Of a DNA stretch of 31,179 nt, positions 11,206-31,133 are shown piece by piece (position 1 is the stretch's first letter; every line of letters begins with the position of its first letter). The position numbers were made by a program, and so were the translations under genes. Source of the DNA: a virus; the IMG/VR virus record IMGVR_UViG_3300031957_002709, positions 1 through 31,179 of that record; one strand, given 5' to 3'. The notes below the pieces were generated by a model. That model saw nothing but the letters and a program-made list of their open reading frames with translations, did not search any database and was not told the origin of the DNA.

Positions 11206-11568
11206 ATGCTCTCTAATAACTCTCTCCAGTTAATTAAAGTGCACCAGGACGAACCAGAGCACATAGTCTTACAAGTAAACCGAAACTGTGATTTAAGTAA
11301 TTATGCGGTTTTTAATATGACCTACCCAATAGATGCTGGGCCTAAAGTAAAGCAGTCTTACTTTTTCCAGAAAGAGTTGGTTAAGACTGGTGATTATGTT
11401 TTTCTGCATACTGGGAATGGTGTTGTAAAGAAGTCTGCAAATCCAAAGAAGCCTGGCAATTACTTTTACATGTTCTACTGGGAGCAAAATAAGAATGTAT
11501 GGATTGATGAAGGTGATTGCTGCAGTGTGGTTCAGTATAAATTAGAAAGCCGGAGTCAGGTAGTATGA
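11206..11568 (+). CDS. Lamin-tail-domain-like cargo protein
   Basis: 120 residues; ATG directly after the stop of the previous gene (TAAATG). The order DLSNYAVFN, then L.KTGDYVFLHTGNG, then FYWEQNKNVWIDEGDC resembles the immunoglobulin-like lamin-tail domain, whose bacterial members often end in W.n.GD.a.L. The match is a pattern judged by eye. No signal peptide is visible, so it is probably cytoplasmic. As the middle member of a three-gene cassette with coupled starts, it likely works with its neighbours. Confidence 0.6.
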   Translation: MLSNNSLQLIKVHQDEPEHIVLQVNRNCDLSNYAVFNMTYPIDAGPKVKQSYFFQKELVKTGDYVFLHTGNGVVKKSANPKKPGNYFYMFYWEQNKNVWIDEGDCCSVVQYKLESRSQVV

Positions 11569-15409: not shown

Positions 15410-15870
15410 TACAAAGCCTTAATCCTTGCAGAGTGCTCTTTATGATACTTGAAAGCATTCTTCTTGCCCTCTGTAAAAACCATCTGCAACTCTGCTTTTG
15501 TGAGGTCGTAGACTTTCGAGCCTTGGTGCCAGCCTTCATATACCTCACCATCTTCAAGTGAATCAATGGCTTCAGTAATGTTTATGTAATCAGAAGTCCT
15601 GGCTTTAATTATTACACCAGGGCGAACTTCAACAGCATTGTTTTCAAGTTGCTGGCTTAAGATTGCTTTAGATTCCTTAATGGCCTGGTCTTTATTTAAA
15701 ACTGGCTGATACTCTGCTATAATCCCGGCAAGCTCTGCCACTTTTGGCTTTGGATCTTCATAAGGCCATTTAACAATTCTATCACCACGAATTTCTAACC
15801 CCTGTTTTGGATTTCCAGAGGCGTGACCAGCAGGATCATATTTATAGATTATTGCTTCAATTAAACTCAC
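15409..15870 (-). CDS. Tail-fibre-linked protein, DUF4376-like
   Basis: The GTG start at 15870 gives a GTGA overlap with the fibre stop and has GGGAGG about 8 bases upstream; the longer ATG-started frame (15942) would overlap the fibre by 76 bases. About 153 residues. The C-terminal half (VIIKARTSDYINITEAIDSL..YDLTKAELQMVFTEGK) follows the DUF4376 pattern of proteins encoded after tail fibres, thought to be fibre assembly or tip parts. The N-terminus (YKYDPAGHASGNPKQ) is fibre-like. Confidence 0.65.
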   Translation of the reverse strand: MSLIEAIIYKYDPAGHASGNPKQGLEIRGDRIVKWPYEDPKPKVAELAGIIAEYQPVLNKDQAIKESKAILSQQLENNAVEVRPGVIIKARTSDYINITEAIDSLEDGEVYEGWHQGSKVYDLTKAELQMVFTEGKKNAFKYHKEHSARIKAL

Positions 15871-18020
15871 GGTTCTACCTCCCATATAGTCATATTTCCT
15901 GATCGAGCAGATCCAAGTTTTGCGCCTCCAGAGCCAAGCCAATAGCAGGTACCCCCAGTTTGACCAAATCTAGCTTTATAAGTTCTGGCTGATGTTGTAC
16001 TTGCTGAAACTTTAAAGACTAAGCAAAACGCTTCTCCTCCAGTACTCACATAAAATTGTTGAGCCGCTATTGCATCTGCATCTGAATCTTTAAATAAAGC
16101 AATGGCTGCCCCATATCCCGCACCATTCACCCAACCCGAAACCATGATAATTAAATCATTGCTTCCGCTTGTCGGTGTAATGGACGTATCTAAGCCACAT
16201 GAACCCCCTTCTGTTTGCTGAGGTATTGTATTATCGTCAGGGATTGCTGTTGTGGTCGATGCATAAGTATTATCTTGGGTTGAAACAACTTGTTTTACCT
16301 TTCCTCCACCACTACCCCCACTTGCTGAACTTCCAACTAGCTTCCAATTGGTCCCGTCATGGTGAAAATGATAAATAGTATTCATCTTCATTTCTATGTC
16401 AGTGTCATCTGGAAGTAAAAAGGTATTGGTTCCAGTTGCATGTTTGATTGTGGGGACCTGACCAGAGGCAGACATAGTTAAAAGTAATTCAGTTTGTCCA
16501 GTTGCAGGCACAATAGAATCTAAGTCATCAGTTGCAGCTGCTGATTCATTGCCAATTGCATGAATCATTTGAGTTTGTGTTACAGCACCTGAAGATATAG
16601 TTAAAGTTGTGGAAGTTTTAAAACCCAATCCTAAGAGAGTGTTTATGTTTTTATTTTGTGCATCAAGGTTTCCACCAAGTTGAGGTGTGGTATCATCAAT
16701 TAAATCATCCATACCACCAACACCAGCAACCTGAGTATCTACATAAGCCTTAATACTCTGTTGAGTTGCCAAAGCTGTTGCAGAGTCTGAAGCCATGTTA
16801 TCTTCATCTAAACAATCAGATACATTTGCGGTGGTTGGGAAGTCTATGGAATTGCCGTTTAAATCTAAATCCCCACCAAGTTGTGGTGTGGTATCTTCAA
16901 CTACGTTTTCAAGTTTAGTCGCTAATAGTGCCGGCCAGTCTGTGCCGTTACTTGGCGGTGCTGCAACTGCTTCATCAATCAAGTCATTTTCAATTGTGCA
17001 GTTATCAAGTCTCAAAAGTGTTGTTCTAGCTCCGGAAAGGTAAAGCTCAACTTCAAAGAAAAGTTCAGCGTCTTCTTCTGTCAGGTTTAACAGCTCTTCA
17101 ACTGCATATGATGAAAGGTCAAAGTTTGCAGAAAAGCCTTCAAAGCCTAAAAGCCCAGAATCATCTGCAACTATTAAAGCAACATTAGTTGCCGCTTTAG
17201 TCCCAATGAAAGTAATATCATATTCTAAATCAGAAATTTTAATTACTGAAGTATCACCAGCGGCTAACGTGGACATTGCTTCCAAGCCGGTCTTCATATC
17301 AGCAGCTGAAACACCATATTCAAAAGTGGCCTGATCTGCTCCGAACCCTAAAACAAAATTGCCGCCTCTGCATTCCTTATCAATCTTCACTTTCTGCTGT
17401 TCGTTTATTCCAGTTCCACCAGCAATAGTTTCAGTTACAGTAATTGAAGGGGCTGAAAGAGTCGAAAAAGATTCCTGCAGAGCAATAGGGCTTTCTTTTA
17501 GTTTAAGAATCTGGACTTCTGCGGTGCTTCCATCGCCTTCTGTTTTGGTGAAAATTGCCAAGTCTGAAATAGGGACAATATTTGTAAGGTCTCCAGAAAT
17601 AGCAGTACGGGCACCAACTGAATCAAAAGTTACAGTCCATGGACCACCATCAGAGCCAGTAACAGTAACACCACCTGCAGAGGTAATAGAAGCCAGGCCG
17701 TTTAATGCAGTGGATAAATCAGCGACTGAGATATCATAATCAAGTGCTGCAGTTGTATCAGCCCCATAAGTAAGTGTAAAAGTACCAGATGTTACAGACT
17801 GGTCAATTCTCCCCATAGCAACCCGGAGAGTTTCAGTAGTAACTTCTATGTTTGAGTAAGGTGTTCCAGGGTTGCCGGGGTTACTTTTCAGGAGAACTAC
17901 CCGCAGTGGAACAACATCACCCTGAGTAAATTTAATTGTGGATTCTTCGGAAGGGTCTCGAAAACCTTTAACGAGTTTTCTATTGTCGGTATCGATCCAG
18001 AGGTATTTTTCAAAACTCAT
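15867..18020 (-). CDS. Tail fibre / receptor-binding protein
   Basis: 717 residues. An N-terminal domain (1-95) probably attaches to the tail. Two related beta-domains follow (about 95-185 and 215-300), each with a pattern like GTFTLTYGADTT..A..DLS.AL. Then come two copies of the classic fibre motif EDTTPQLGGDLDLNGNSI and DDTTPQLGGNLDAQNKNI with ATQQSIKAYVD between them, and a glycine/serine-rich linker (ASGGSGGGKVKQ). A C-terminal beta domain (about 590-717) is probably the receptor-binding head. The leader has one copy of the repeated late-gap motif. Confidence 0.85.
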   Translation of the reverse strand: MSFEKYLWIDTDNRKLVKGFRDPSEESTIKFTQGDVVPLRVVLLKSNPGNPGTPYSNIEVTTETLRVAMGRIDQSVTSGTFTLTYGADTTAALDYDISVADLSTALNGLASITSAGGVTVTGSDGGPWTVTFDSVGARTAISGDLTNIVPISDLAIFTKTEGDGSTAEVQILKLKESPIALQESFSTLSAPSITVTETIAGGTGINEQQKVKIDKECRGGNFVLGFGADQATFEYGVSAADMKTGLEAMSTLAAGDTSVIKISDLEYDITFIGTKAATNVALIVADDSGLLGFEGFSANFDLSSYAVEELLNLTEEDAELFFEVELYLSGARTTLLRLDNCTIENDLIDEAVAAPPSNGTDWPALLATKLENVVEDTTPQLGGDLDLNGNSIDFPTTANVSDCLDEDNMASDSATALATQQSIKAYVDTQVAGVGGMDDLIDDTTPQLGGNLDAQNKNINTLLGLGFKTSTTLTISSGAVTQTQMIHAIGNESAAATDDLDSIVPATGQTELLLTMSASGQVPTIKHATGTNTFLLPDDTDIEMKMNTIYHFHHDGTNWKLVGSSASGGSGGGKVKQVVSTQDNTYASTTTAIPDDNTIPQQTEGGSCGLDTSITPTSGSNDLIIMVSGWVNGAGYGAAIALFKDSDADAIAAQQFYVSTGGEAFCLVFKVSASTTSARTYKARFGQTGGTCYWLGSGGAKLGSARSGNMTIWEVEP

Positions 18021-18060
18021 AATTCACCAAGGTTTTTTAATTCTTAGTGAATTGTCAACT
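18021..18060 (-). promoter_or_regulatory. Late-gap motif copy 1
   Basis: On the minus strand AGTTGACAATTCACTAAGAA (plus 18041-18060). The part AATTCAC (18047-18053) can pair with GTGAATT (18021-18027) immediately before the fibre start codon, giving a 7-base stem with a 19-base loop that covers the ribosome site. Confidence 0.6.
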
Positions 18061-18065
18061 TTAAT

Positions 18066-19304
18066 TTATGGTGGTGTATGATACTCAAAAGCTGAACCAT
18101 CAGTTTTATTAACGTGCAAATATACAGCATGGGCGATTGTGTTTAAGGTGGGCAAATCAACAGATAGGCTTTTATAAACCAACCCATAACCATTTGTTTC
18201 ATTATCTCCTAATGCTGGCATACTTGGAACTGTAGGACTCTCAAAATCAGGGCTGGCTATTTCTAGATAATAATAATCTGATCCATCAGCAGTGAGTGTT
18301 AGGAAAACGACTTCATCCTCAGTTTCACCAGTTCCCAAGTCATCAAAATAGAAATCACTTGAATAATTGCCGGTATCATAAAATCCGTAAAGTTTTATGG
18401 TTGCTGTGAATTTATTTGGAGTTGTAGCTCTAAAAATATCAGGAACTTTAAAACGTATTCGTCTAGTTCTTATTTCACATCTAATTAAAACATTAGTCCC
18501 AACTTCTTCATTAGCGACTTGGAAATCTATCAGCGCCTCAACAGGAGAGGTTTCCGCATCAGATATTGCTGTATACCATGTATCATTGGCTAATTCATCA
18601 TCATATTTTTCTAGCGTATAATCTCTAACATCAGTAATTGTTGAAAAAGGTGAGGATTCATTTAAATCATTGGCTGCATAAACATCATTTGGTGTACTAC
18701 TCAATCTTGGATTTGTTATTTCACAGATGCAGGACGTAAATGAAGGTGTGCCAGTTTCATACCTGTATTCTGTTCGGGATCTTATAAATTGTGTCTCCAC
18801 ATCCGTAACCCACTCCGATTCTGCTCCTCCTGCAGTTTTCTCTATTGGTACAACTTCATAGTATTCAGGATAATTAAGAACCTCGAACCATTGTTTTATA
18901 TGAGTCATTTTTGCAAGATCTTCACTTTCGCTTAGTAAGGTTCCAGAAGCATACCCAAGCTCATCTTCTAATAATTCTGACAAATTATAACTTGTAGGAA
19001 TATCATCAGTTGTGACAGCTCCGCCACCTGTATTTATAGAATCTGTCTCTACTGCAGGTTTGGGATAGAGAGCGTTTTCCATTTTTTGAAGTGTATCGGG
19101 TGTGCCACCAGCATTTGCATATAAATCACCTTCATCAATCGGCCACTCATTATCTGCATCAAAATCGGCAGAGTGAACCGCCTCAACACATGCCTGTCTT
19201 TCGTCACATGCGTTTTTAATCTCACCTAAAATTGTAAACAATGGCCGTTTTGCTACATCAATCCAATTGGCATAAGCCCAAAAATCTAACCATTTAGAAG
19301 CCAC
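18066..19304 (-). CDS. Tail structural protein, unknown
   Basis: 412 residues. The N-terminal 70 are acidic with Trp and Tyr (KWLDFWAYANWIDVAKRPLF), the middle is rich in Thr/Ser and Glu, and the C-terminal 180 are beta-rich (FTATIKLYGFYDTGNYSSDF). No transmembrane or catalytic motif. Placed between the tail-tip-like genes and the fibre, it is probably a tail-tip or fibre-base component. Confidence 0.6.
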   Translation of the reverse strand: MASKWLDFWAYANWIDVAKRPLFTILGEIKNACDERQACVEAVHSADFDADNEWPIDEGDLYANAGGTPDTLQKMENALYPKPAVETDSINTGGGAVTTDDIPTSYNLSELLEDELGYASGTLLSESEDLAKMTHIKQWFEVLNYPEYYEVVPIEKTAGGAESEWVTDVETQFIRSRTEYRYETGTPSFTSCICEITNPRLSSTPNDVYAANDLNESSPFSTITDVRDYTLEKYDDELANDTWYTAISDAETSPVEALIDFQVANEEVGTNVLIRCEIRTRRIRFKVPDIFRATTPNKFTATIKLYGFYDTGNYSSDFYFDDLGTGETEDEVVFLTLTADGSDYYYLEIASPDFESPTVPSMPALGDNETNGYGLVYKSLSVDLPTLNTIAHAVYLHVNKTDGSAFEYHTPP

Positions 19305-19308
19305 TTAA

Positions 19309-19719
19309 TCACCCCTCAAAAACTGAATAAGAAACTATATAATATTTATCATTAACTTTTATGCACCAATGGCCAGCGCCTGCTGCACTATTTGGAATCT
19401 CCCCATTAGTGTGTCGCTTTGCATAAATTGTTACATTTGAAGCCAACTCTGTACGGTCTGTGGGATTATCAAATCTCTTGGCTTTATATTCATTGTCATT
19501 GGTAGCGGAAGTAATTTCAAAGTAATACAGAGAAGAGCCAGCAGTGCTTGGTGTCATTAATTGCTTAGACCTCTGCCCATTTGGGTAATGTGAGGTTAAT
19601 GTTCCTGCCTGGCGAACAAGCGGCACAGACCGCACACCATCCCGCACTTGTTCAAACCTTCTCGCACTGAGATTGTCACCCGGCTTAAACTTGCCAATAG
19701 CCTGCTTATCATTGCTCAT
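19309..19719 (-). CDS. Small tail-tip or baseplate-like protein
   Basis: 136 residues. A basic N-terminus (GKFKPGDNLSARRFEQVRDG) recalls the first residues of phage baseplate proteins that dock to a hub; the rest is beta-rich. Its ATG overlaps the previous stop. No family is recognised. Confidence 0.55.
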   Translation of the reverse strand: MSNDKQAIGKFKPGDNLSARRFEQVRDGVRSVPLVRQAGTLTSHYPNGQRSKQLMTPSTAGSSLYYFEITSATNDNEYKAKRFDNPTDRTELASNVTIYAKRHTNGEIPNSAAGAGHWCIKVNDKYYIVSYSVFEG

Positions 19720-20408
19720 TAGACACTATCCGAAAAGCTATATATTGTATCATTCCAGCCACCAGGACCAGAAACAAGAAATTCTTCAGAAAGTTCATGA
19801 AAGTTTGCCCCAACTTCTCTGGAGTTCCATGAAGTTTTCAAGGCGTTTATTCCTGCAGGAAGACCAGGTATTTTACCAGACTGAATTTTATAAATATCAC
19901 CGATATCTTCCAGGCCTTTATAAACGTTGGTAGTGTACCAGGTTCTTCTAATAACCGGGGTTCCAGTAAGAAAGCCACGAACACCAGCAAATGAAGATGT
20001 AGATTCAAAGCCCAGGAATAAACCATCATCTGAGAATAAAGCCCCGTTTTGCTCTGAACCTTGAGAGCCGGCAAAGTCTTCAAAATCTGGATGTGTTTCA
20101 ATTGCCTCTTCAGATAGTGAAGAATAGTAAGAATAAAGCGGCTTTGTGGGGTTACTTTCCAAACCAAATAACTGCACATTAAATGTATAATTACTGGCTT
20201 CACCGCCTACGAGCTGAACACCTATTACTTTTACATCATTCAACTTTTCAAATGAATCCCCGATTTTAGGCCGGTGACTGAAAGCTTTCCCTGCATCAAC
20301 TTTATATGAGGCTGAGCCGGTTATTGTCTGGTCTAAACTCCAGTTTAAATCCCAGTCTGGCTGTAATTGTAATACTGAAGACTTTGAACCTTTTTTTACA
20401 ACTGACAT
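19719..20408 (-). CDS. Tail-tip-like protein
   Basis: 229 residues, beta-rich, starting MSVVKKGSKSSVLQLQPDWD. The spread of aromatic and glycine residues and its position directly after the tape measure fit a distal-tail or tip protein. No domain is identified by eye. Confidence 0.55.
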   Translation of the reverse strand: MSVVKKGSKSSVLQLQPDWDLNWSLDQTITGSASYKVDAGKAFSHRPKIGDSFEKLNDVKVIGVQLVGGEASNYTFNVQLFGLESNPTKPLYSYYSSLSEEAIETHPDFEDFAGSQGSEQNGALFSDDGLFLGFESTSSFAGVRGFLTGTPVIRRTWYTTNVYKGLEDIGDIYKIQSGKIPGLPAGINALKTSWNSREVGANFHELSEEFLVSGPGGWNDTIYSFSDSV

Positions 20409-20410
20409 AA

Positions 20411-21739
20411 TTAAGCCCCCATTCCGTTATTATTTTTCTTTTGCCCCTCTTTGGGTAAAGTGTTCTTTGCAATCATCTCTAAAAAGTTCAGCTGCTTTCT
20501 CTGAATCTCTATAGGGTTTCCAGCGCCAACATTTCCACCACCACCAATTGAAGCCAAAGAAGAAACAGCAATGCCTTTTGATTTGCCTTTTTTATTGATT
20601 TTTTCGGGGTCTGTGAAATCTCCCAATTCATCCCCAGGACCAACTACTTTTTTAGTAACATCCCAAAGCGAACCAAGACCTTTTTTAGCAATCTCCCAAT
20701 TCTTTTTGGCATCTTGTTGGCTCTTTGTATCATCTTCCATTTTTACATTTCTGCGGGCAAAGTCTAACTTTTGCTCATAAGATATATTTCCATTGTTCGC
20801 ATCAGCTTTTTTAATTACACGAAGCTCATGTTCAATATCTTTTTCAGTTATTTTATTTGGGTCTCTGCCTTCTTCTCTTGCTTGTTGCTTTGCCATAAGA
20901 ACAGCCTGCTTTCTTTCAAGCTTTTGAAATTCATTATTGTATTTCTCCATTTCTTCACGGGCTTTTTTTATCTCTTTGGTCCTTTTATCAAAACCAAGAG
21001 GCACACTTGCCCAATGCAAAAGCGTCCCAATTCCCGTTTTAATTTTGCTGGTTGCTTCATCTAAAGCCACCTTCATATTATTAAGGTTCTCAATGGCATC
21101 GGTTTTCATTATCCGGCCGGACTTTTCCATTTTCTCATTAAGCTTATCAAAGCCTTCAGTGCCGATTTTCTTAAGCACTTCTAAAAGTTTTGGCCCGGCA
21201 TCTTCACCCATTAAGGTAACAACATCTAAATAAGCCTTAGATTTATCTGTCGCTGAGTTATAATTCCGGGCAATTGCTTCAAGCCGATCTTCAGTAGATA
21301 AGGCGACAAATTGTTCTGTCGAATAACCCATTCTATTTATTATATCTACATATTGTTTAGAGCCCTCTTTCGCCTGTTGCACTCTGGTATTTATGGAACG
21401 TAAAGCCCCTAGTAAAGCTTCTGAATTTTGCCCAGCATCCATGACCAAATTCAAAGAAGTCTGAAACTTCTCCATATCCATTTGAGCTTCAGAAGATTGC
21501 TTTTTAATTTCCTGTGCAAAATCAAGAGTGCTTTTAATAGTGGCTAAAGCTGCACCAGTGGCAGCAATGGCACCAAGGACTTTACCAAACCCGTCTGCAA
21601 GTCGCTTAGTTCCTGAAACACTATTATCTAAATCTTTGGTCACACCCTTAGTGAAGTCTTTAACTTCTCCCCTCATGCTTACAAGATCTTTTTCAAACTT
21701 AGTGTAATCCGCTGAAAACGGTACTTTTAAACCTTTCAT
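20411..21739 (-). CDS. Tape-measure-like protein, short
   Basis: 442 residues, mainly helical. The start MKGLKVPFSADYTKFEKDLVSM, then a Gly/Ala hydrophobic stretch (FGKVLGAIAATGAALATIKS, about 51-70) and long charged coiled coils (200-330) are typical of tape measures. The length predicts a tail of only about 60-70 nm at 0.15 nm per residue, which is short. The C-terminus is polar and Gly-rich (GGGGNVGAGNP). It overlaps the upstream gene by 4 bases. Confidence 0.72.
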   Translation of the reverse strand: MKGLKVPFSADYTKFEKDLVSMRGEVKDFTKGVTKDLDNSVSGTKRLADGFGKVLGAIAATGAALATIKSTLDFAQEIKKQSSEAQMDMEKFQTSLNLVMDAGQNSEALLGALRSINTRVQQAKEGSKQYVDIINRMGYSTEQFVALSTEDRLEAIARNYNSATDKSKAYLDVVTLMGEDAGPKLLEVLKKIGTEGFDKLNEKMEKSGRIMKTDAIENLNNMKVALDEATSKIKTGIGTLLHWASVPLGFDKRTKEIKKAREEMEKYNNEFQKLERKQAVLMAKQQAREEGRDPNKITEKDIEHELRVIKKADANNGNISYEQKLDFARRNVKMEDDTKSQQDAKKNWEIAKKGLGSLWDVTKKVVGPGDELGDFTDPEKINKKGKSKGIAVSSLASIGGGGNVGAGNPIEIQRKQLNFLEMIAKNTLPKEGQKKNNNGMGA

Positions 21740-22380
21740 TTTGAAGCCTTCCTTGCTTTAAGCCAGATGTCCGCTTTTTCTTTCCCTCTTTCTTCAAGAA
21801 CGATTTTATATAAATCTTCATCTGACATTTTATTGAAGTCTGGTAAGTCGTTTTCTATGGCTTCAATCTCAAGAGGGTCTATGAATGATCTGGGGTTTCC
21901 TTTTATCTCTGAGAAAGTAGCTGCAAGCCAGTTAGCATAGCCAATAGACATATCCCAGGCTGTATTGTGGTCTATTCCATTTTTAACTAAAACTGCTATT
22001 GTGGATAACTCTTTTGGTGAGCTTACGTCCTTCCATCCACCTTCCCCAGAGTCTACAAAGTGCGGCACTCTTTGGTGCTCGCTCAGGTACTTAGTAAAGT
22101 GAAGGCAATGCTTTAATAAAACTTCTCTTGATCTCTTACTTAAATAAGCGGCTTTGAAGTAATCTTTTTTAGTTAATTTGAAGTTCTCAAAGTCAGCAAA
22201 TTTTAAAGTACAAGCCCGTAAAGCGACTACTAAATCATAAGATGTTATAATTTCATTGGAGTTTAAGAAGGGGCAGTTTAAGGCATGAAGCAAGGCTAAA
22301 TGCCCATAACTGAATGGTGTTAAGGTATAGCCAAATATTTTTGCTTTTGGCGGTAGGAGTGATCTGTAAAAAGTTTCCAC
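21736..22380 (-). CDS. Probable tail assembly chaperone
   Basis: 214 residues, helical. The N-terminus (FGYTLTPFSYGHLALLHALN) resembles tail assembly chaperones that precede tape-measure genes, and it lies exactly there, overlapping that gene by 4 bases. No second reading frame with an obvious slippery site was found, so a frameshifted gpG/gpT-type product is not indicated. Confidence 0.6.
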   Translation of the reverse strand: METFYRSLLPPKAKIFGYTLTPFSYGHLALLHALNCPFLNSNEIITSYDLVVALRACTLKFADFENFKLTKKDYFKAAYLSKRSREVLLKHCLHFTKYLSEHQRVPHFVDSGEGGWKDVSSPKELSTIAVLVKNGIDHNTAWDMSIGYANWLAATFSEIKGNPRSFIDPLEIEAIENDLPDFNKMSDEDLYKIVLEERGKEKADIWLKARKASK

Positions 22381-22387
22381 ATTCTTT

Positions 22388-22729
22388 TTAGTATGTTATG
22401 CCTTCAGATTGGAGGAGATTTAAAACAACTGTTTTGTGTGCTTCATTCGCTTCAGTAATTGTAACGGAAGTTATTTCATAAGCCACAGAGTTATAGGTCA
22501 GTTCATCGCCTTGGCTCGGAATGGTATAGCCAGATTGAATTCTTAAGGTAATAGATGATTCTTTTTTGCGGTCATCATAACGCCTTTCAATAACAATCCC
22601 ATTTTCATCTTTTGTTTCAGCAGCAACACCAAAAGTTTTATTTTCATCAAAACCCATAACGGTTGCATTTGTGATAGTGCCAGAAGCAATACCGAATATA
22701 TGTGCTGTGCCTTTAGTTTCTGCTGCCAT
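22388..22729 (-). CDS. Possible tail tube or head-tail structural protein
   Basis: 113 residues, almost all beta (GTAHIFGIASGTITNATVMG.., then SSITLRIQSGYTIPSQGDEL). It is downstream of the tail-terminator-like gene and upstream of the chaperone, the normal place for the major tail protein, though short for one. A ribosome site AAGGAAAG precedes it, and a copy of the repeated late-gap motif lies in its leader. Confidence 0.55.
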   Translation of the reverse strand: MAAETKGTAHIFGIASGTITNATVMGFDENKTFGVAAETKDENGIVIERRYDDRKKESSITLRIQSGYTIPSQGDELTYNSVAYEITSVTITEANEAHKTVVLNLLQSEGITY

Positions 22730-22758
22730 GTCGCTTTCCTTAACCTTGTTTGTTTTTT

Positions 22759-22779
22759 ATTCTTAGAGAATTGTCAACT
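22759..22779 (-). promoter_or_regulatory. Late-gap motif copy 2
   Basis: Minus-strand AGTTGACAATTCTCTAAGAA, plus 22760-22779, with an internal ATTCT/AGAAT pair (22759-22763 and 22767-22771). It is about 30-50 bases upstream of the start at 22729. Confidence 0.6.
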
Positions 22780-22780
22780 A

Positions 22781-23227
22781 TTAAGGGCTGTCGATCTCTT
22801 CCATAATCATTTCGTATTCCACCCCGTCATACTGAATGTTTTCCCCGTCAAAGTCGGTTATTTCCGTAACTGGTCTAACTAGGTGTACATGTAGGTCAGT
22901 ATAGTTTGCCTGGGTCTCTGTCTGGATCGCTGAAAGGTCTCTCATAGCACAGTTTGCCGAAGTGATAAAATCATCAATGTCCGTTTCCGTATCTTCATTA
23001 ACATCTGAACAAGCGAAAACTTTAATCACTGGCCGATAAGAATAAGCTGAAGCAGGCATTTCTGGGTCATCTGGTGTCGCTTCACATACAACCATTAAAT
23101 AAGGCAATGATCCTTTATCTGCCTGGTTATGCCCCTTTACTACCGTACAAGTCAAAGAGTCTGCAGTTAATTGAGCTTCAATCACTGTCTTAAGGCAGCT
23201 TTCAATTCGTTTCTTTAGTGGTGTCAT
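22781..23227 (-). CDS. Tail terminator-like protein
   Basis: 148 residues with the look of gpU-type tail terminators: an N-terminal helix (LKKRIESCLKTVIEAQ), then strands (LPYLMVVCEAT.., VIKVFACSD) and a C-terminal strand (VEYEMIMEEIDSP). Position between the tail-completion gene and the tail-tube-like gene supports the call. It overlaps the previous gene by 4 bases. Confidence 0.55.
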   Translation of the reverse strand: MTPLKKRIESCLKTVIEAQLTADSLTCTVVKGHNQADKGSLPYLMVVCEATPDDPEMPASAYSYRPVIKVFACSDVNEDTETDIDDFITSANCAMRDLSAIQTETQANYTDLHVHLVRPVTEITDFDGENIQYDGVEYEMIMEEIDSP

Positions 23228-23991
23228 TTTATTACCTGTGTCTGCTTGGCGTTTATCTCAATCACCTTTTTAACGAGCTTTTCAATTGCTCTGGCTCTGG
23301 TGTTCAAAGCTTTTAAAATATGGTAATTGTCAACAAGTTTGCCGATGTAAGAAACATTGTTAATTATGGTCACCTGGCTAATATTTCCCCGTTTGCCGAC
23401 TACAGCAGTTCCCAGATTTCCCTTATGTCTTTTAATCCAGGCTGGAACTCTGCCAGTGCCAAGTTTAGCCGCAGCATGTGCCCAGCCAGCTTTGGCGAAT
23501 CCTACACGCTTCTGTACTTCAGTCGCATACTTACGAACGTCTTTAACCGGGGCGAACTTCTTTTTTACTGGTCTTCTAACTCTGCCGGCTTTTCTATTCT
23601 GTTTATGTTCCTTACCACCGTCAAAGCCTTCAATCTTGATATTAAGACTGGAGGCAATTTTTGAAGCGGTTACATAGTCACCTTTCTTAACGTGATAATA
23701 AAACGCCCCTGCCTGCTCTTTGCTGGTCTTCCGGATCATCTTATACAAGTCATGTTCAGTTAAGTAAACTCTGCCTATATCCCTGCCAACTGCGTTTTCT
23801 CCAGTTCGTTTAGACTTTAAACTTTTACCAAATGGCTGAGTTACATGAATCAGGTCCATGCAGAACAGCCGGGCTTGTTGCTGTAAAATCTCCTCTGCAT
23901 CTCTCTGTGAATTCTGCAGAAGCTGCTTAAAAGCCTTTTCCAGTTTCTGAAACTCTTTAGTAAAAGCCAGTTGATTGAATTTGATTTCCAT
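23224..23991 (-). CDS. Tail-completion / minor tail protein
   Basis: 255 residues, basic, with a helical start (KEFQKLEKAFKQLLQNSQRDAEE) like the HK97 gp10 or lambda Z group, a basic loop (RKAGRVRRPVKKKF) and a strand-rich end with NNVSYIGKLV. It lies between head-tail joiner and terminator genes. It is larger than the usual Z protein because of the middle basic insertion. Confidence 0.55.
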   Translation of the reverse strand: MEIKFNQLAFTKEFQKLEKAFKQLLQNSQRDAEEILQQQARLFCMDLIHVTQPFGKSLKSKRTGENAVGRDIGRVYLTEHDLYKMIRKTSKEQAGAFYYHVKKGDYVTASKIASSLNIKIEGFDGGKEHKQNRKAGRVRRPVKKKFAPVKDVRKYATEVQKRVGFAKAGWAHAAAKLGTGRVPAWIKRHKGNLGTAVVGKRGNISQVTIINNVSYIGKLVDNYHILKALNTRARAIEKLVKKVIEINAKQTQVIK

Positions 23992-24326
23992 TATGGAGTG
24001 CTGGTATTATTGGCGTTGGTTAAAAATAAAGTGGTAGCAGATGGACCAGTATTAATCCCGGTAATCTTCCAGGTGATTCCATCCAGAACACACTTCTTAT
24101 CTTTGGCAATGGTTACTGCAGCTGCTGTTATTTCAGACTGAGGAATAAGAAAGGAACATTCAGCAGTTACATTGCGGCCACCAAAGTCTAATTCATTTGA
24201 CTCTGTGCGCTCATTAAAGAAGCCAGACAGGGTTTCCCCCTCGTAAGTCATGTCTTTCTCTTCTCCCATTAAAGGAAGTGTTTCAGTAAGACCTTGGTTC
24301 AAAAACTTAAATAGTGGATTCGGCAT
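23991..24326 (-). CDS. Head-tail joining protein
   Basis: 111 residues, beta-rich (FNERTESNELDFGGRNVTAECSFLIP..), like the small gpFII-type joiners. The start follows an internal terminator after the capsid group. The stop overlaps the next gene's start. The family is judged by size, strand pattern and location. Confidence 0.5.
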   Translation of the reverse strand: MPNPLFKFLNQGLTETLPLMGEEKDMTYEGETLSGFFNERTESNELDFGGRNVTAECSFLIPQSEITAAAVTIAKDKKCVLDGITWKITGINTGPSATTLFLTNANNTSTP

Positions 24327-24339
24327 TTTATTCTCCTAT

Positions 24340-24371
24340 AAAAAAAGCCCCCTGGATTACCAAGGGGCTTT
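24340..24371 (-). terminator. Internal terminator after the capsid group
   Basis: On the minus strand, AAAGCCCC at 24371-24364 pairs with GGGGCTTT down to 24344, with a three-base extension past a mismatch, then a run of seven T. It ends transcripts between the 71-residue gene and the joiner, so downstream tail genes need read-through or a fresh start. Confidence 0.8.
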
Positions 24372-24398
24372 GCAACTCAACCAGGGACAATAGTTGAT

Positions 24399-24614
24399 TT
24401 ATTTCTTTGGGGCTTTAGTGGCCTTAGGCTTAACGGCAACCTTTCTTTTACCGTCAGCTCTTGACCACATTTCCAATAAGACAGCACCCTTAAGAGCTGG
24501 AAACTTAACACGTGCTTCCTGCATGTATTTCATTTGCTCTTTTGGTTTGACCTCTGGCCCGTGGACCAGAGTTCCTTTACCATCTTTATCATAAGCAATT
24601 GTAATTGCAGTCAT
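24399..24614 (-). CDS. Small basic protein after the capsid gene
   Basis: 71 residues with a basic C-terminus (GKRKVAVKPKATKAPKK). It starts 2 bases after the capsid stop and is followed by a terminator. No domain is recognised. Candidates are a head-accessory or neck protein. Confidence 0.55.
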   Translation of the reverse strand: MTAITIAYDKDGKGTLVHGPEVKPKEQMKYMQEARVKFPALKGAVLLEMWSRADGKRKVAVKPKATKAPKK

Positions 24615-24616
24615 GA

Positions 24617-25468
24617 TTAAGCACCATTACCCAGAACAGCACCAACGTTAGCATCTCCAAGAGAAGCCCCGAACATAACGTCAAATGATGCCCAAACCTC
24701 ACGACCACTGATAGAAGCCCAGCGGCAGAACTGAACAGTGATGCCCAGGTCTGGAATTTCGATTAGCTCTTGATCAATCATCATATTAGCGATTGAAGGA
24801 TCAATCACAGGTACACCAGAAGCACAAGCTATTGCACCATCACCGCAAGCGAGACCGACAATATTTGAGCCGGCACCATCCCAGCGGTTATTGTTATAAA
24901 TCCCATCAAAGCCATAAGCGCCATTTTGATTCAGATTGAAGCTGTCAAGATTTGTTGGCAGGATTTGAGCATAGTTTGTACCGTCAAGAATAACGTTTTT
25001 AACGTCACTGTCTTCAATAGCTGCCCAGAGTGTTTTCAGGTCATCACTGTCAAATGAAGCTGGTGCAACGTCAACAGCATCAGCGCCAAAGTTTGCATTT
25101 GTTACCGGAGCAAAAGCAACATCCAAAATCTTATTAGCAAGCTGACGGAAATTGATTTCCATAAGCGAGCTAAGTCTGTGACCAGATTGAACTTGAGCGT
25201 TAGTAAGGTGGAAACTTGCAGAGTACTGATTGACAGTAACGGGAATGTTTGTGAGAGTTGAATCACCACTTTCAAAGTTCGTTGCATCAGTCTGGACAGT
25301 TGCGCCAGCAGTTGCTTTTGGAACCTGGACATTTTTCAACGGTGCTAAGGCATCAGCAGAAAAGTCCCTGCTGAATGCATTTAGTGAGGCAAGCTTGTTC
25401 TGTGCGATAGTTAAAACCGTGTCACGGGCAACATCCACAACAAGAGCCGAAGCAATCGTATTAGCCAT
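24617..25468 (-). CDS. Major capsid protein, HK97-fold
   Basis: 283 residues. Expected: an N-terminal segment (MANTIASALVVDVARDTVLT), an E-loop-like region with Thr/Ser/Gly (ATVQTDATNFESGDSTLT), a helix (GHRLSSLMEINFRQLANKIL), a P-domain strand and a beta-rich A-domain (ITVQFCRWASISGREVWASF). It lies after the scaffold gene and before the head-tail genes, as a capsid gene should. No signature residue confirms the fold by eye. Confidence 0.78.
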   Translation of the reverse strand: MANTIASALVVDVARDTVLTIAQNKLASLNAFSRDFSADALAPLKNVQVPKATAGATVQTDATNFESGDSTLTNIPVTVNQYSASFHLTNAQVQSGHRLSSLMEINFRQLANKILDVAFAPVTNANFGADAVDVAPASFDSDDLKTLWAAIEDSDVKNVILDGTNYAQILPTNLDSFNLNQNGAYGFDGIYNNNRWDGAGSNIVGLACGDGAIACASGVPVIDPSIANMMIDQELIEIPDLGITVQFCRWASISGREVWASFDVMFGASLGDANVGAVLGNGA

Positions 25469-25513
25469 TTTGTATTTCCTTGTTATTTATGCCCGAAGGC
25501 GTTTAAGCAGTTA

Positions 25514-25963
25514 CTACTTGTTAGCAGCTGCAAAGAGATCTTTTTTGTTTTCTGCAAAGAACTTGTCACGGTCAGGACCGGCAGGCATTTTTGCGTACTG
25601 GGCAGAAAGTGAAAGAGAAGCTTCAGCAGTTTCTTCATCTGCTTCAGTCTGCTCTACTGGTTCATGACCAATTGAGGCAACTGTTCTTGCAGCTTCTTCT
25701 GCTACTTTTACGGGCTGCTCTTCAACAACTTTAACTGCAGCTTCTTCTGCTTCTGAAGCTCTTTTTTCAGCTTCAACTTTATCAGCCAGGGCTTTTTCAG
25801 CAGAGGCTTTAAGGGTTTCGTTTTCGGTTGAAGCTTCTGCAAGCTTTTCGGAAAGTTCATCATTGGAAGCTTTCAACTCAGCAGCTTTGGCTTCAAGTGT
25901 TTCATTCATTTCTGCAAGCTTGGCGTTTTCTGCCTGGAGCTCTTTATTGCTGAAAAATCCCAT
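25514..25963 (-). CDS. Scaffold-like coiled-coil protein
   Basis: 149 residues, nearly all Glu/Lys/Ala heptads from 5 to about 80 (AENAKLAEMNETLEAKAAEL..), then an acidic linker and a short end YAKMPAGPDRDKFFAENKK of the kind found at scaffold C-termini. It is between the protease and capsid genes, as Nu3-like scaffolds are. The protease may cleave it after assembly. Confidence 0.75.
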   Translation of the reverse strand: MGFFSNKELQAENAKLAEMNETLEAKAAELKASNDELSEKLAEASTENETLKASAEKALADKVEAEKRASEAEEAAVKVVEEQPVKVAEEAARTVASIGHEPVEQTEADEETAEASLSLSAQYAKMPAGPDRDKFFAENKKDLFAAANK

Positions 25964-25980
25964 TGTTATTTTTCCTTTTT

Positions 25981-26021
25981 AAGTTTGGTTTGTGTCATCA
26001 ATTCTTAGAAACTTGTCAACT
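25981..26021 (-). promoter_or_regulatory. Late-gap motif copy 3
   Basis: Minus-strand AGTTGACAAGTTTCTAAGAA (plus 26002-26021). AAGTTT at 26014-26009 can pair with AAACTT at 25986-25981 over a 22-base loop. The protease stop codon TGA is inside the motif. Confidence 0.6.
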
Positions 26022-26828
26022 ATTGATTAACTCTAAAGCGTCATCAAAGCAGATAACTAAAGCGTCAACTAAACCAAGGTTAACACCTTCAGAGCCTGAG
26101 TATGTAAGCCCTTGCATAGTTGAATCTTCAATGTCTCCCTGGCCTTCTCTGACAGCTGCTTTGAATTCTTCGTGAAGCTCTTCTACCTCTGCCTGAAGCA
26201 TCTCTCTTTCTTCGGCTGTTGGCGGTCTCAATCCGATTGCTTTGTGGTCACCAGCTTCAAATAGAATTAGCTCCCGGCCTTCTTTTTCGTTCTTGGCAGT
26301 GTCATCAAACCAAGCCATATAAACGCCAATACTTCCGACAGTAGCAGAAGGGGTTGCAATGATTGCAGAACAGGCTGAAGCAATCCACATTGCTGCAGAA
26401 CAGCAGAGATTTTCTGTAAAAGCATAAACTGGTGTAGTCGCTGAAATCCGTTTAATCATATTAGCGAACTCTGCAACACCCGTCACAGTTCCACCTGGTG
26501 AGGAGATATCTAAGAGGATTGATTTAACAGCTGGGTCTTTGTCTGCTTCAATTAAACCTTTTAGCGAGTAATCGAGAGAGCAGCCACCACAAGCCATTTC
26601 CATTCCTGAAAGGTGCTTACCAATAACACCATAAAGCTGAACATAAGCGACACCATCAGGAAGAGTTTTATAATAATCTGAAGTGGTTTCTGCAAATGGT
26701 GAACTTTCCATTCTATGGTCAGCTTTCTTTTGAATTGTCTCCAATAAAGTCTGCTGTATTGCCTGGTGTGTCGCAGGAAGAACAAGCCAGGGTTCAGAGA
26801 ATACTTTTCTTAAAATATTAGGATACAT
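26016..26828 (-). CDS. S49/SppA-type prohead protease
   Basis: 270 residues with the ClpP-crotonase-like S49 fold: LLDISSPGGTV (105-115), the nucleophile Ser144 in NLCCSAAMW, and Lys196 in DHKAIG. It is the lambda gpC type. It cleaves scaffold and prohead parts during maturation. It overlaps the portal gene by 11 bases. The stop codon TGA lies within the repeated motif copy 3. Confidence 0.88.
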   Translation of the reverse strand: MYPNILRKVFSEPWLVLPATHQAIQQTLLETIQKKADHRMESSPFAETTSDYYKTLPDGVAYVQLYGVIGKHLSGMEMACGGCSLDYSLKGLIEADKDPAVKSILLDISSPGGTVTGVAEFANMIKRISATTPVYAFTENLCCSAAMWIASACSAIIATPSATVGSIGVYMAWFDDTAKNEKEGRELILFEAGDHKAIGLRPPTAEEREMLQAEVEELHEEFKAAVREGQGDIEDSTMQGLTYSGSEGVNLGLVDALVICFDDALELINS

Positions 26829-28296
26829 TTTCTTCTTCCTCTTTAGGATCTGGTTGTTCGTTTGGTGTTAGCATTGAAATTTCACGATCATCAATCTTGA
26901 TGCCAGTCTCTACTTCAACCTTTTCTTTAAGTCTCTTCTTGGTTGCTACTTCATATAGCCTTTCAAGAATATGCTCATCATAGGTTCTACCATTTTCGGC
27001 ACATATTTGAGTTTGATTAATCATCCCTGCTTTCCATTGGTCAATTCTAGCTTTTGCGTCTCTTCCGGGATCAATAGAAATTTTAGGTGGCATTGTAAAG
27101 CCCCAATTCCACCAGTTATCATTAGGTGGAAGAATACCTAATTTAATAGCCTTGGCAATTGCATAAACAACCATCCTGCGAGCTGGTCCCTTTAGAACGT
27201 CCTGACGATCTTCTACACTCTTTTTTACCTTGCTCATTTCAAGACGGTTACTTGTGCCAGTCAATTCATTAGGCTTCCAAACAAATGAATATGACCAATT
27301 TGCGCCAGTTATATAAAGCCGTGCAGTCCTGTCTTGAAAGGACTCCCACATATTGCCAGGGCGGTCATGATTTACGGTTGATATTCCTCCGCCCGTTCCA
27401 GACTTAAAGTATCTAACTAAACCACCCTCAAATACCTCAGATGTAAAACCATCTTGATTGGTGGCACCATTATCTGTTAAAAACGTTCGCGGGTCTCCAT
27501 CATCTGGCATTCCAGACTCATTTTGTTCAACCAATGCAATAGAGGAAACGGCAAGCTGAGACATAAGCTCATACTCTTCAGACTTCATAGAAGATAAAAT
27601 ATTGTCAATTGCATGTAACCCTTCTGGAATCCCCCTGCCTTGTTCGTGCCAGTGAGGGTCAAACACATGTATTAAATTTTGTGCAGAGATATCTTTATCT
27701 TCACGGCCGGTTTTATCTTCGCCTAGAACACGATAAGCAACCGCACGACCCAATTTATTAAAAATTACACCTTTTTTAATTTTGAGGTTTTTATACTTTC
27801 CCTCTTGAACCGTTTTGTGGTTTTTTCTTTGTCCAATTCTATGTGCGCCAATTCTCTGAAACTGAGGATAACCAGTTTTAGATTCTGTTAACAATATAAA
27901 AAAATCACCATCTCTACTTACTGCAACAGAGTCAATAAAAAGATTAGTTTTAAAATCAAAGGTTGGGCCCCTAACATCACAAATAGGGTAAAACTCATTC
28001 ATTAACCATTTACTTGCCTGGTCTCCCCAATCTTTATCCTCTCCCCTATATACCGGATTCCATCCACGGCCAACTGCATAATTAGCCTTCTGTAAAACGG
28101 TTGCTTTACATATTCCATGATTTGCAAATAGTTTTCTGGAAGCACTTAAAATAGTCCACCAGTCTGAATTGGGGATCAAGTCATCTATATCTTCTATGTG
28201 CAATCTTTCCCAAGGTTTATTCACACCTCTAACTGCAGCCTTTGCAAATTTCCGCTCTCTATATGCGGGCCTTCCAAAAGAATCTAAAATAGCCAT
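26818..28296 (-). CDS. Portal protein, gpB-like
   Basis: 492 residues of the lambda gpB (phage portal 2) type. Visible parts are the N-terminal RPAYRERKFAKAAVRGV, a central region with RDGDFFILL, and the end DDREISMLTPNEQPDPKEEE. The ring lies at the capsid vertex and takes DNA from the terminase. It starts 3 bases after the gpW-like stop. Confidence 0.85.
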   Translation of the reverse strand: MAILDSFGRPAYRERKFAKAAVRGVNKPWERLHIEDIDDLIPNSDWWTILSASRKLFANHGICKATVLQKANYAVGRGWNPVYRGEDKDWGDQASKWLMNEFYPICDVRGPTFDFKTNLFIDSVAVSRDGDFFILLTESKTGYPQFQRIGAHRIGQRKNHKTVQEGKYKNLKIKKGVIFNKLGRAVAYRVLGEDKTGREDKDISAQNLIHVFDPHWHEQGRGIPEGLHAIDNILSSMKSEEYELMSQLAVSSIALVEQNESGMPDDGDPRTFLTDNGATNQDGFTSEVFEGGLVRYFKSGTGGGISTVNHDRPGNMWESFQDRTARLYITGANWSYSFVWKPNELTGTSNRLEMSKVKKSVEDRQDVLKGPARRMVVYAIAKAIKLGILPPNDNWWNWGFTMPPKISIDPGRDAKARIDQWKAGMINQTQICAENGRTYDEHILERLYEVATKKRLKEKVEVETGIKIDDREISMLTPNEQPDPKEEEENVS

Positions 28297-28299
28297 GTT

Positions 28300-28581
28300 T
28301 TAATACCTTGCATAAGATGTTGAAGAGGGCCACCAACCATTATCTATGTAGCGAATAACTTTATTAAGAAAGGCCAATCGTTCGTTTTTGGTGTAGCCAA
28401 GTTGAGCACTGTGAGAAAGACCATTTCCGGAACCACTAATAATTTCCTTACCGGCTTCAGGATTTTGAGTTATATCCGTAACAAGCGTTACCCGTTCTGC
28501 TTTAAGAGTTGCTAAAAGTGTAGGGTCATCTTGTGCTACCTGTACAACAGCTCTAATCTGCTCAATTCCAAAGTGACTCAT
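28300..28581 (-). CDS. gpW-like head-tail joiner
   Basis: 93 residues, with a helix-rich start (IEQIRAVVQVAQDDPTLLATL), a beta turn and a charged helix end (RLAFLNKVIRYIDN). Size and position between TerL and portal match lambda gpW. Confidence 0.65.
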   Translation of the reverse strand: MSHFGIEQIRAVVQVAQDDPTLLATLKAERVTLVTDITQNPEAGKEIISGSGNGLSHSAQLGYTKNERLAFLNKVIRYIDNGWWPSSTSYARY

Positions 28582-28587
28582 GTTGTC

Positions 28588-28618
28588 TCGCTTTTTGTTT
28601 TTTAGCGAATTGTCAACT
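28588..28618 (-). promoter_or_regulatory. Late-gap motif copy 4
   Basis: Minus-strand AGTTGACAATTCGCTAAAAA (plus 28599-28618). TCGCT at 28608-28604 can pair with AGCGA at 28592-28588 over an 11-base loop. The TerL stop TGA is inside the motif, and the next start codon is only 18 bases away. Confidence 0.6.
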
Positions 28619-30343
28619 TTCTAAATCTTCGGATGTTGATAAAATTCCGAGCATCATTGCAACAGCAACAGACATTGCTTCAGTATCCCAGAGGTGGTTG
28701 TCTTTTTTGATTTTGACATAGATTTGCTTAACAGCACCAGTCTTTTTATTGACTTCATCACGCTTAACTTCTGAATCAATCTGAAGTTTATAAGCGTCTG
28801 AAACATCTCCGGGAATTTCCCAGGGCATACCATGGCCGGCACGAAGAATTGAAAGCTGGTCCTTTATCTTTTCATTACTCCAAAAGATATAACGAGCCCG
28901 GCCACCGCTGGGAGCTTGGGCAGTCTGAACTGGTGAAAAGAACTTTTTAACCATATTGCCCCGCTTTTGCTTATGGGAGAAATAAGCCTTACCGGATCCA
29001 TGAAGGGCAGTCCAGTTATATTCAACACAGGAATCATAAACTTTCCCGGTCTCATACTGGGCATCAATAAAAACAAGCTTGTCATGTACTTTGTGAGTTA
29101 GTTGAATTTCTCGCAGTGATTCTTTTGTAAGAACTTTACTTTCATAAATTAAGCGGCTACTTCCATCTGCTTTCCATATTCTTATACTGGTCCAGAAGTG
29201 GTCCCGCTGAACGTCTACAGTCATTATCCGGTGTAGCTCCCCTTCCCATAATTCCCCGTTCATATAATCGGTTTTATTATAATCGGCAGCTATTAAAGCG
29301 GTCCGGGCATCTCCGTAGTCTAAACGCCAAAACTCTGCTAAACGTTTTTGTATTACTTTTTTAAGCGGAATGAAATTCCCTTTCTTCTTTTCATCCTCTG
29401 CTTTAATCCAGCGCTCAACAGTCTTACCCCAGGACTTCGAGAAAATAACATAATCAGAAAAGTTAAAACCAACCTTTCCCTTAATGGCTGTTGTGTTGGT
29501 TGCTATATAAACGGAATTATCTGAAAGCCTTCTGCGGGTCTGGCTGTCATCCTGGTAAGTTGCTTCACAGTGTGGGCATTGCATATAAACAGAATCAAGG
29601 ATCTTTGCCCAGTCGTAATTGTCTTCGCTGTCTCGAAAGATTTCATATTTAATATGAGAGTGGACCCATTTATTTAACTGTTCACACTCTTCACATTGCC
29701 AGTGCAGTATTCTTTGGTCTGTCTCTTCCCAGGCAATATGTAAATCAGAGCCTTCATCACCACCTTGTGAAGTGAATACAATTCGAGCATTCCAGCGGTC
29801 ATGAGTTCGCCCCCGCTGTTCGTCCATCATTCCCGGCTTCCATATCCAGGGTTCATCACCAATACACCACCGCATTGATTTGGATTGAAGGTTTGACATA
29901 TTCGCCCCGCCCAGGTGAAGAACCATGTGAGGAAATATTATGCCATCACGTTTTGAGTGAAAACGATTCTCTGGCCAAAGTGCAGCCAAGGGTTTGCAAA
30001 GTTTCATTGCTTTTTCTAATCGGGTTTCATAAAAGTACTTAGCATCCCCTTCAGTCTGAAAGGTGATCATTGTGCCGCCCGGCTCCTCTGCAATAATCCA
30101 CTGTGCCAAAGCTTCATAGAGTGCAGTTTTCCCAGAACCAACCGGAGCAATAATAACTATTTCGTCATTTGAATTATCAGCTATTTCCTGAAGTGGCTCA
30201 CGAAACCAGGGCGTTTGATTAATGTCATAGCTACCGCCTTTTGGGGAATCGATAACTTTTACATGTGAGTTCACCCAATCACAAACACCCAAATCTGAGC
30301 CGGGTTGAAGAACTTCCGCAGCTGCTTCTAAAACCGGATTCAT
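28613..30343 (-). CDS. terL: Terminase large subunit, lambda gpA family
   Basis: 576 residues. Packaging ATPase: Walker A APVGSGKT (66-73), Walker B CIGDE (160-164). A zinc-type insertion has CEEC (217-220) and later CPHC. The nuclease half includes MTVDVQRDHFW and LVFIDAQYET. The gpA (PF05876) group makes staggered cos cuts, consistent with the 12-base terminal repeat. It overlaps a small upstream gene by 4 bases. The stop codon is embedded in the repeated late-gap motif. Confidence 0.93.
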   Translation of the reverse strand: MNPVLEAAAEVLQPGSDLGVCDWVNSHVKVIDSPKGGSYDINQTPWFREPLQEIADNSNDEIVIIAPVGSGKTALYEALAQWIIAEEPGGTMITFQTEGDAKYFYETRLEKAMKLCKPLAALWPENRFHSKRDGIIFPHMVLHLGGANMSNLQSKSMRWCIGDEPWIWKPGMMDEQRGRTHDRWNARIVFTSQGGDEGSDLHIAWEETDQRILHWQCEECEQLNKWVHSHIKYEIFRDSEDNYDWAKILDSVYMQCPHCEATYQDDSQTRRRLSDNSVYIATNTTAIKGKVGFNFSDYVIFSKSWGKTVERWIKAEDEKKKGNFIPLKKVIQKRLAEFWRLDYGDARTALIAADYNKTDYMNGELWEGELHRIMTVDVQRDHFWTSIRIWKADGSSRLIYESKVLTKESLREIQLTHKVHDKLVFIDAQYETGKVYDSCVEYNWTALHGSGKAYFSHKQKRGNMVKKFFSPVQTAQAPSGGRARYIFWSNEKIKDQLSILRAGHGMPWEIPGDVSDAYKLQIDSEVKRDEVNKKTGAVKQIYVKIKKDNHLWDTEAMSVAVAMMLGILSTSEDLES

Positions 30344-30528
30344 TGGGAATCCATAACTAAAACAAATGCAAAAGCATAAATTAAAATGAATTTCATATAG
30401 GGATATATTGGAACTTTTTTATAAACCCCCTGTAATTTAAATACACATTTTCCACCAAAGCGGCCACAATCACAATGAAAGCAAAATAGCCCGCACATCT
30501 CACTTCTTAATATCTTCTTCCAGCTCAT
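30340..30528 (-). CDS. Cys-rich small membrane protein between the terminase genes
   Basis: 62 residues. Five Cys (12, 16, 19, 21, 28) in the first half, then a C-terminal hydrophobic segment (about 45-60, MKFILIYAFAFVLVM). It overlaps both TerS and TerL by 4 bases, so the frame is real and coupled. A gene between terminase subunits is unusual. Possible roles are zinc-binding accessory of packaging or a membrane anchor; no family is recognised. Confidence 0.65.
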   Translation of the reverse strand: MSWKKILRSEMCGLFCFHCDCGRFGGKCVFKLQGVYKKVPIYPYMKFILIYAFAFVLVMDSQ

Positions 30529-31064
30529 GTGAGTTGAGCCTCATTAAGGTTTTTCTGGAAGTCCCGCAGAATATCTTCTTTACATTCCTTGGTTACTTTT
30601 TGAATCTCAGCAATTGATAGACCGTGAACTTTGGAAGGTAATTCTGATTCAAGTTTACTGGCAAGGCTGGCCATTAAGATAGAGAAGACCCGGACCGCAG
30701 AAGATTTAATATTTGAATTCTTCGTGTATTCGCCCCGGTCAACCTGAAAAGCAAAGTAAGCTTTTTCTGAATCAATTAGTTTCTTAATAAAGTTTATTTC
30801 TGATTGGGTTTTACAGTTGTGCAGCTTATCAAAGAGAGTTTCACCAGGTACTTCTATTTCTCTCTGGTTAATTCCGGTGCCTTCAATCTTCTCACCGTCT
30901 GGCTTCTGTTCTGAAATGTGCTTTTCAACTGCGGCCTTATCATAAATATCGACTCCAGCCTTTTTGAATCTCTGAATAGTTTTAGCTGAACAGCCGTATA
31001 ATTCCCCGAGCTCTCTGTGCGTTGGTTTCTTTACTTTGTCCACTTGTCCAGATTTTTCTGCCAT
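30525..31064 (-). CDS. terS: Terminase small subunit, Nu1-like
   Basis: 179 residues. The N-terminal winged HTH (about 14-40, PTHRELGELYGCSAKTIQRF) is typical of Nu1-type small subunits that bind cos-side repeats. A middle acidic linker follows, then a long helical C-terminal part (about 80-179) for TerL contact. The leader contains TGGACA repeats and one copy of the late-gap motif. Confidence 0.85.
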   Translation of the reverse strand: MAEKSGQVDKVKKPTHRELGELYGCSAKTIQRFKKAGVDIYDKAAVEKHISEQKPDGEKIEGTGINQREIEVPGETLFDKLHNCKTQSEINFIKKLIDSEKAYFAFQVDRGEYTKNSNIKSSAVRVFSILMASLASKLESELPSKVHGLSIAEIQKVTKECKEDILRDFQKNLNEAQLT

Positions 31065-31133
31065 ACCTAATCCCTGAAATACTTTTTAAAGATTAGTTAA
31101 GTGTCAACTCAAAAACGGTGGACAAAGTGGACA
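31037..31133. repeat. TGGACA repeats at the TerS start, candidate cosB sites
   Basis: On the plus strand, TGGACA at 31119-31124 and 31128-31133 face the inverse TGTCCA at 31037-31042 and 31045-31050 (inside the start of terS). The pairs are spaced 8-9 bases and sit within 140 bases of the cos end, as the R sites of lambda cosB do. A TerS-binding role is inferred from place only. Confidence 0.45.
31067..31109 (-). promoter_or_regulatory. Late-gap motif copy 5
   Basis: Minus-strand AGTTGACACTTAACTAATCT (plus 31090-31109), the most diverged copy. CTAATC at 31096-31091 can pair with GATTAG at 31072-31067 ahead of the terS start, over an 18-base loop. Confidence 0.5.

Follow-up and report, generated by a model that had tools for sequence, protein, structure and literature searches.

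A TTGACA element in the late-gene leaders of Verrucomicrobiota phages and an HTH protein family that accompanies it

Introduction

The control of late genes is almost unknown for phages of the Verrucomicrobiota, a widespread phylum. The stretch of DNA analysed here, an IMG/VR record of 31,179 nucleotides (IMGVR_UViG_3300031957_002709) that will subsequently be referred to as the window, carries five copies of a short motif, each in the leader of a late gene. The core of this motif is TTGACA, the word of the -35 box, and in relatives of the phage it usually stands 13-16 nt before the start codon, a placement that does not fit a standard promoter. What kind of signal these sites form, and what reads it, is the question addressed here.

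Results

Five copies of the motif in the window

The sequence AGTTGACA occurs exactly five times in the window and on the minus strand only, where 1.39 copies are expected and five were reached in 1 of 100 shuffles. In plus coordinates the copies are found, as TGTCAACT, at 18053, 22772, 26014, 28611 and 31102. The longer form AGTTGACANNTNNCTAA is present at the same five places and at no others, and TTGACA-N6-TAA is common to all five. The genes that follow are likewise on the minus strand. Copy 1 (18053-18060) lies in the leader of a fibre-like gene (15867-18020) with weak PHROG tail matches, 32 nt (N32) from the ATG, and has an 11-bp hairpin that extends to the start codon. Copy 2 (22772-22779) precedes a 113-aa tail-tube-like gene (22388-22729) at N42, and copy 3 (26014-26021) a 149-aa gene (25514-25963) at N50; the latter is placed between an S49 protease and the major capsid protein and would by position be a decoration or scaffold gene. 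Copy 4 (28611-28618) stands at N29 before a gpW-like head-tail gene (28300-28581), and copy 5 (31102-31109) at N37 before a terS-like gene (30525-31064), which has a weak PHROG match to the terminase small subunit and a 34% match upstream of terL in G003, the nearest relative. The gpW-like and tail-tube-like genes also have matches in G003 (54% and 52%, respectively), each with a TTGACA of its own. The motif of copies 3 and 4 includes the TGA that ends the preceding gene, the protease and terL respectively.

The number of copies, their strand and their positions in late leaders agree with the preliminary description of this DNA. The stretch after the hexamer, which had been given there as AWTTNNCTAA, takes that form in copies 1, 2 and 4, but reads AAGTTTCTAA in copy 3 and ACTTAACTAA in copy 5, and it was discarded as a conserved element since it is not retained in relatives. 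A search of Rfam with the window matched no family.

Conservation in related phages

Relatives were collected with the terminase of the window; their TerL proteins are 34-62% identical to it, G003 being the closest at 62%, and their G+C content is 40-62%. Verrucomicrobia phage P8625 is the closest named phage when TerL is compared, and no other named phage was found with the capsid protein. In the loci of most TerL relatives TTGACA is found at the terL stop codon, the place of copy 4, while the sequence after it differs completely. Conservation is thus limited to the core, TTGACA, and does not extend to the variable part. The motif is also present at the places of copies 2 and 3 in G001/G003. 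Across the loci of the TerL relatives AGTTGACA occurs 60 times in the sense and once in the antisense orientation, the consensus is [T/G]TTGACA, and many relatives have TTGACACC. The TGA within TTGACA serves as the stop codon of an ORF in 68 of 307 occurrences, counted in loci that were not dereplicated. Each genome holds 5-10 sites that are confined to late leaders, and in complete genomes those at N12-17 from a start codon fall in the late region only. Capsid genes are often without the motif. The element is real and phage-specific, and its conservation is deep; the family that carries it is a large, unstudied group of Verrucomicrobiota phages, for which a search of the literature library found no described motif of such a kind.

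Two leaders carry doubled, opposed sites in the form of perfect inverted repeats, TGTCAA-N6-TTGACA (L041, 3006-3023) and TGTCAA-N3-TTGACA (L142, 2233-2247). A separate observation concerns L140 (G021), in which many genes that lack TTGACA are preceded by unstructured leaders rich in CAACCA/ACCAAC, with hexamers of this kind slightly in excess at N13-16.

Spacing to the start codon and promoter geometry

Among 5183 start codons TTGACA was found at N13-16 in 145 cases against 8.9 expected, ranking first among all hexamers, with N13 alone accounting for 77 and no peak at N13-16 for the antisense sequence. TTGACT and CTGACA are tolerated at this spacing; little or no tolerance was seen for the remaining single-base variants that were tested. 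In dereplicated leaders 75 of 142 have TTGACA 13-16 nt before the start codon, compared with about one per nucleotide elsewhere. The bases that follow it are often CCGC and are G+C-rich in many relatives. The window and G003 have a looser spacing of N29-50, and there AAGG/AGGA-like sequences precede the start codon.

Where the start codon is at N13-16, the N-termini of the gpW-like and tube-like proteins align, by eye, with those of homologues. These start codons are therefore real, which rules out TTGACA as a normal -35 element there, because RNA initiated from a -35 box 13-16 nt before the start codon would begin inside the gene. In the window itself a consensus sigma-70 promoter scan gave no match at any of the five copies, none of which has a -10 at 16-18 nt, as the preliminary description had maintained. 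TTGACA as a standard -35 was accordingly rejected on geometry in the relatives and on the promoter scan in the window. A different arrangement, in which TTGACA replaces the -10 and RNA starts at an A 7 nt further on, was also set aside: the intervening bases are G+C-rich, and a bound HTH protein would hinder melting. The leaders of relatives show a peak of A at +13/+14.

A strong intrinsic terminator with its end 2-7 nt ahead of TTGACA is present in four or five independent lineages, an arrangement that points to the start of a new transcription unit. This evidence is supportive only, since terminators without the motif are also found behind capsid genes, the window included. The terminator in question (24371-24344, minus strand) is a strong one behind the capsid block with no TTGACA after it; several relatives have TTGACA directly behind its counterpart.

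Hosts and prophages

The TerL family is encoded by 26 of 388 Verrucomicrobiota genomes, in several of them within recognisable prophages, and the family of an HTH protein encoded in the window (described below) by 16 of 388. In about ten of these genomes both families are found on one contig, within about 12 kb. The prophage regions carry the motif densely, one piece having 13 sense and 0 antisense copies of TTGACA, and their N12-17 leader sites are almost all sense-oriented.

Host genomes were reached via a 16S signature; a TerL scan of genome contigs gave no match. Seven host genomes showed no genome-wide excess at the motif spacing, with 51 occurrences there and 51 at a control spacing. The exception is G264 (22 versus 7), in which much of the excess lies inside its own prophages. 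As the prophages have the motif and the host genomes lack the excess, a phage factor is likely to be needed. The phage specificity of the motif argues against reading by the host ribosome or a host sigma factor alone, and a ribosome-read or host-wide signal was ruled out by these counts.

It is against these data that ordinary host sigma-70 promoters have to be considered, with TTGACA as the -35 and a degenerate -10. The hexamer does match the -35 consensus, the distant phage P8625 has TTGACA-N17-TATTGG/TATCTG in its late leaders (see Discussion), and promoters similar to TTGCCA-N17-TAATCG precede regulator genes in some of the relatives. However, no promoter was scored at the five sites of the window, the start codon at 13-16 nt in relatives contradicts the geometry, and the host genomes have no comparable signal at the motif spacing; we consider this explanation very improbable.

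Folding of the leaders

The preliminary description had put forward an RNA element with variable stems that keep their pairing near the start codon. Compared with shuffled sequences, the leaders of copies 1 and 4 fold better (z -4.1 and -2.7), that of copy 5 does not differ significantly (z -1.0), and no fold was found for copies 2 and 3. The four corresponding leaders of G003 have no structure (z +0.2 to +1.5); at the place of copy 1 this relative has the motif and lacks the hairpin. The 113 sites of relatives show a weak excess of folding (14% at p<=0.05, mean z -0.53). Among these sites and the G003 leaders no stem was found to be kept across homologues by compensatory change; arms that pair around the start codon (CCATGC/GCATGG, CCGTGA/TCATGG and CCGCGC/GCGTGG) covary, as judged by eye, in one phage group only. 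With stems absent from G003 and weakly enriched over the 113 sites, the covarying-stem element is unsupported as a general rule and was abandoned as weak and lineage-limited. The stems of copies 1, 4 and 5 are more probably side features than functional parts of the element. Some late genes of T4 have a hairpin that conceals the start codon in read-through RNA and is removed by the late start; by way of speculation, a hairpin here might act likewise, masking the start codon on read-through transcripts and being truncated when RNA begins at the late start.

A role at the RNA level need not involve conserved stems. A phage factor might bind UUGACA on the mRNA, 14-19 nt ahead of the start codon, and switch late translation on or off, with a hairpin holding the start codon in some phages. 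The sharp distance to the start codon would suit such a mechanism, as would the small share of genes with N12-17 sites that have Shine-Dalgarno words (6.5% versus 19-30%), the arms around the start codon in the one phage group, the weak overall excess of folding and the hairpins of window copies 1 and 4. Against it, about one site in four lacks a stable fold and no G003 leader folds, the motif is often missing at the capsid genes, the protein that accompanies it is of a DNA-binding (HTH) type, and the host genomes do not use the motif, so that the host ribosome is not its reader. An RNA or translational role is weakened by these results, and we regard it as unlikely.

The HTH protein

The gene at 151-900 (minus strand) encodes an HTH protein of 249 aa, which the preliminary description had named as a possible binding partner. 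It ends the early block and, if the genome is circular or permuted, is the last gene before terS. It was the sole gene outside the structural block to be matched across the first set of relatives; the homologue in G003 lies near a contig end, and in some relatives the gene is located elsewhere. When the HTH family alone was used for a scan, more phages came up, and in those that were examined the motif stands at N13-16. With iterated profiles the protein was found in nearly all motif-bearing genomes examined, the matches in G105, G005, L031 and L038 being marginal. Three genomes with a distant TerL (G402, G325 and G035:C74) have neither the motif nor a convincing HTH protein near TerL. In the prophages G147, G149 and G060 the recognition helix reads VHKAAIS for VTRAxxS, and the motif is absent though TerL is close; as these belong to one clade, the evidence is only suggestive. 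The HTH gene of G029 lies divergently to the gpW-like late gene, and the start codon of the former overlaps with the TTGACA of the latter. The earlier suspicion is thus strengthened to the extent that the family accompanies the motif and is the best candidate for a late regulator. Co-occurrence is, on genome comparison, not proof of binding.

The core of the HTH protein was modelled with a pLDDT of 83, and fold searches with it matched mainly sigma factors, region 4 included, at non-significant values (E>=0.2). The Pfam family Sigma70_ECF gave E 0.0025, below the cut-off. The model of the full-length protein of the window has a pLDDT of 60 and is poor outside the core. Searches of PDB sequences yielded only spurious cullin matches, and no relatives of the protein were found in named phages. 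In sigma factors the TTGACA of -35 elements is recognised by region 4, which makes the pairing of HTH protein and motif attractive, if unproven. The short members of the family, at 118 aa, do not seem to leave room for region 2 in addition. The proteins of the window and G003 have a C-terminal extension missing from the short relatives, with a weak HTH_56 match in G003.

The early block also contains a C5-cytosine methyltransferase gene (1106-2575), and a DUF4145 protein (11565-12173) adjoins the integrase. Between the early operon and a divergent S24-type repressor gene lies a cluster of GTTCAAG/TTGAAC-like repeats (9795-9900), which are probably operators of that repressor.

Discussion

The five sites are best read as a dispersed late-gene control element, that is, sites of transcription control, late promoters or activator sites, read by the HTH protein, a reading to which we give a slightly better than even chance. 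The HTH protein would bind TTGACA, its effect there would be the activation of late genes, and late RNA would begin at the start codon or immediately ahead of it. A protein-binding late promoter, the alternative that the preliminary description had offered to an RNA element, fits better than covarying stems: the motif is phage-specific, strand-oriented, restricted to late genes and accompanied by a phage HTH protein, but no -10 is seen. The absence of a -10 is one of several points against the preferred reading, and the G+C-rich bases after TTGACA are unfavourable for melting. An HTH protein on double-stranded DNA so near the start site is unusual for an activator. The fold matches are non-significant (E>=0.2), several HTH matches are marginal and the spacing in the window and G003 is looser. 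Considerably more tentative is the proposal, for the whole family, of a late start signal that consists of one hexamer some 13 nt ahead of the start codon; a stand-alone phage protein resembling sigma region 4 would read it, and the late mRNAs would be leaderless or nearly so.

The 145 sites at one spacing, together with an accompanying regulator family, constitute a directly testable pair of protein and site. In uncultured phages the motif allows late genes and transcription blocks to be recognised from the sequence alone, and it is an aid in the search for prophages in Verrucomicrobiota hosts.

The stoperators of cluster A mycobacteriophages (L5, TipsytheTRex) are short, asymmetric, intergenic sites that are read by an HTH protein and lie in one orientation along transcription (PMC9283540, PMC6550527). 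The sites described here are similarly asymmetric, intergenic and oriented with transcription, a likeness that favours a silencer, with the HTH protein on TTGACA blocking late transcription, for instance within the prophage or at an early stage of infection. Stoperators are 13-14 bp long and number 20-30 per genome, occurring at early and late genes with the immunity repressor as their reader, whereas here there are 5-10 sites, in late leaders only and at a fixed distance from the start codon. No sites of the N12-17 class are found at early genes, and the predicted S24-type repressor of the window is a separate protein. TGTCAA, the core of stoperators, reads as TTGACA on the opposite strand. 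A roadblock would not be expected to show the fixed N13-16 spacing, nor are the sites spread across early genes, and a stoperator-like silencer is in our judgement improbable.

Activation by the HTH protein, as preferred here, invites comparison with the RinA/Ltr/Alt systems of Gram-positive phages (phi11, phi13, TP901-1). Those regulators act at a single promoter, where repeats precede a start site of the normal kind and one long transcript results, whereas here single hexamers stand at many late junctions close to the start codons. The HTH family had no Pfam or PHROG match that would link it to RinA/Ltr, and the families were unrelated in the searches made.

The late leaders of P8625 (L110, NC_029047), at 5412, 10736 and 15558, resemble those described here in having TTGACA at late junctions with the stop codon TGA inside. 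They differ in a -10-like hexamer at N17 (TTGACA-N17-TATTGG/TATCTG), in a GTATCC-N7-GGATAC dyad that lies over the -10 position and in an ATG at N29-30, about 7 nt after the -10-like hexamer. From their sequence they look like regulated, near-leaderless promoters.

Dispersed late promoters, with one motif before late-gene blocks and a phage protein required, are known from T4 late transcription, P2 Ogr and Mu C. The element described here differs from these in sequence and geometry, with no -10-like part seen; it resembles them in the several copies of one motif that stand before late-gene blocks and in the phage protein that would be required to read them.
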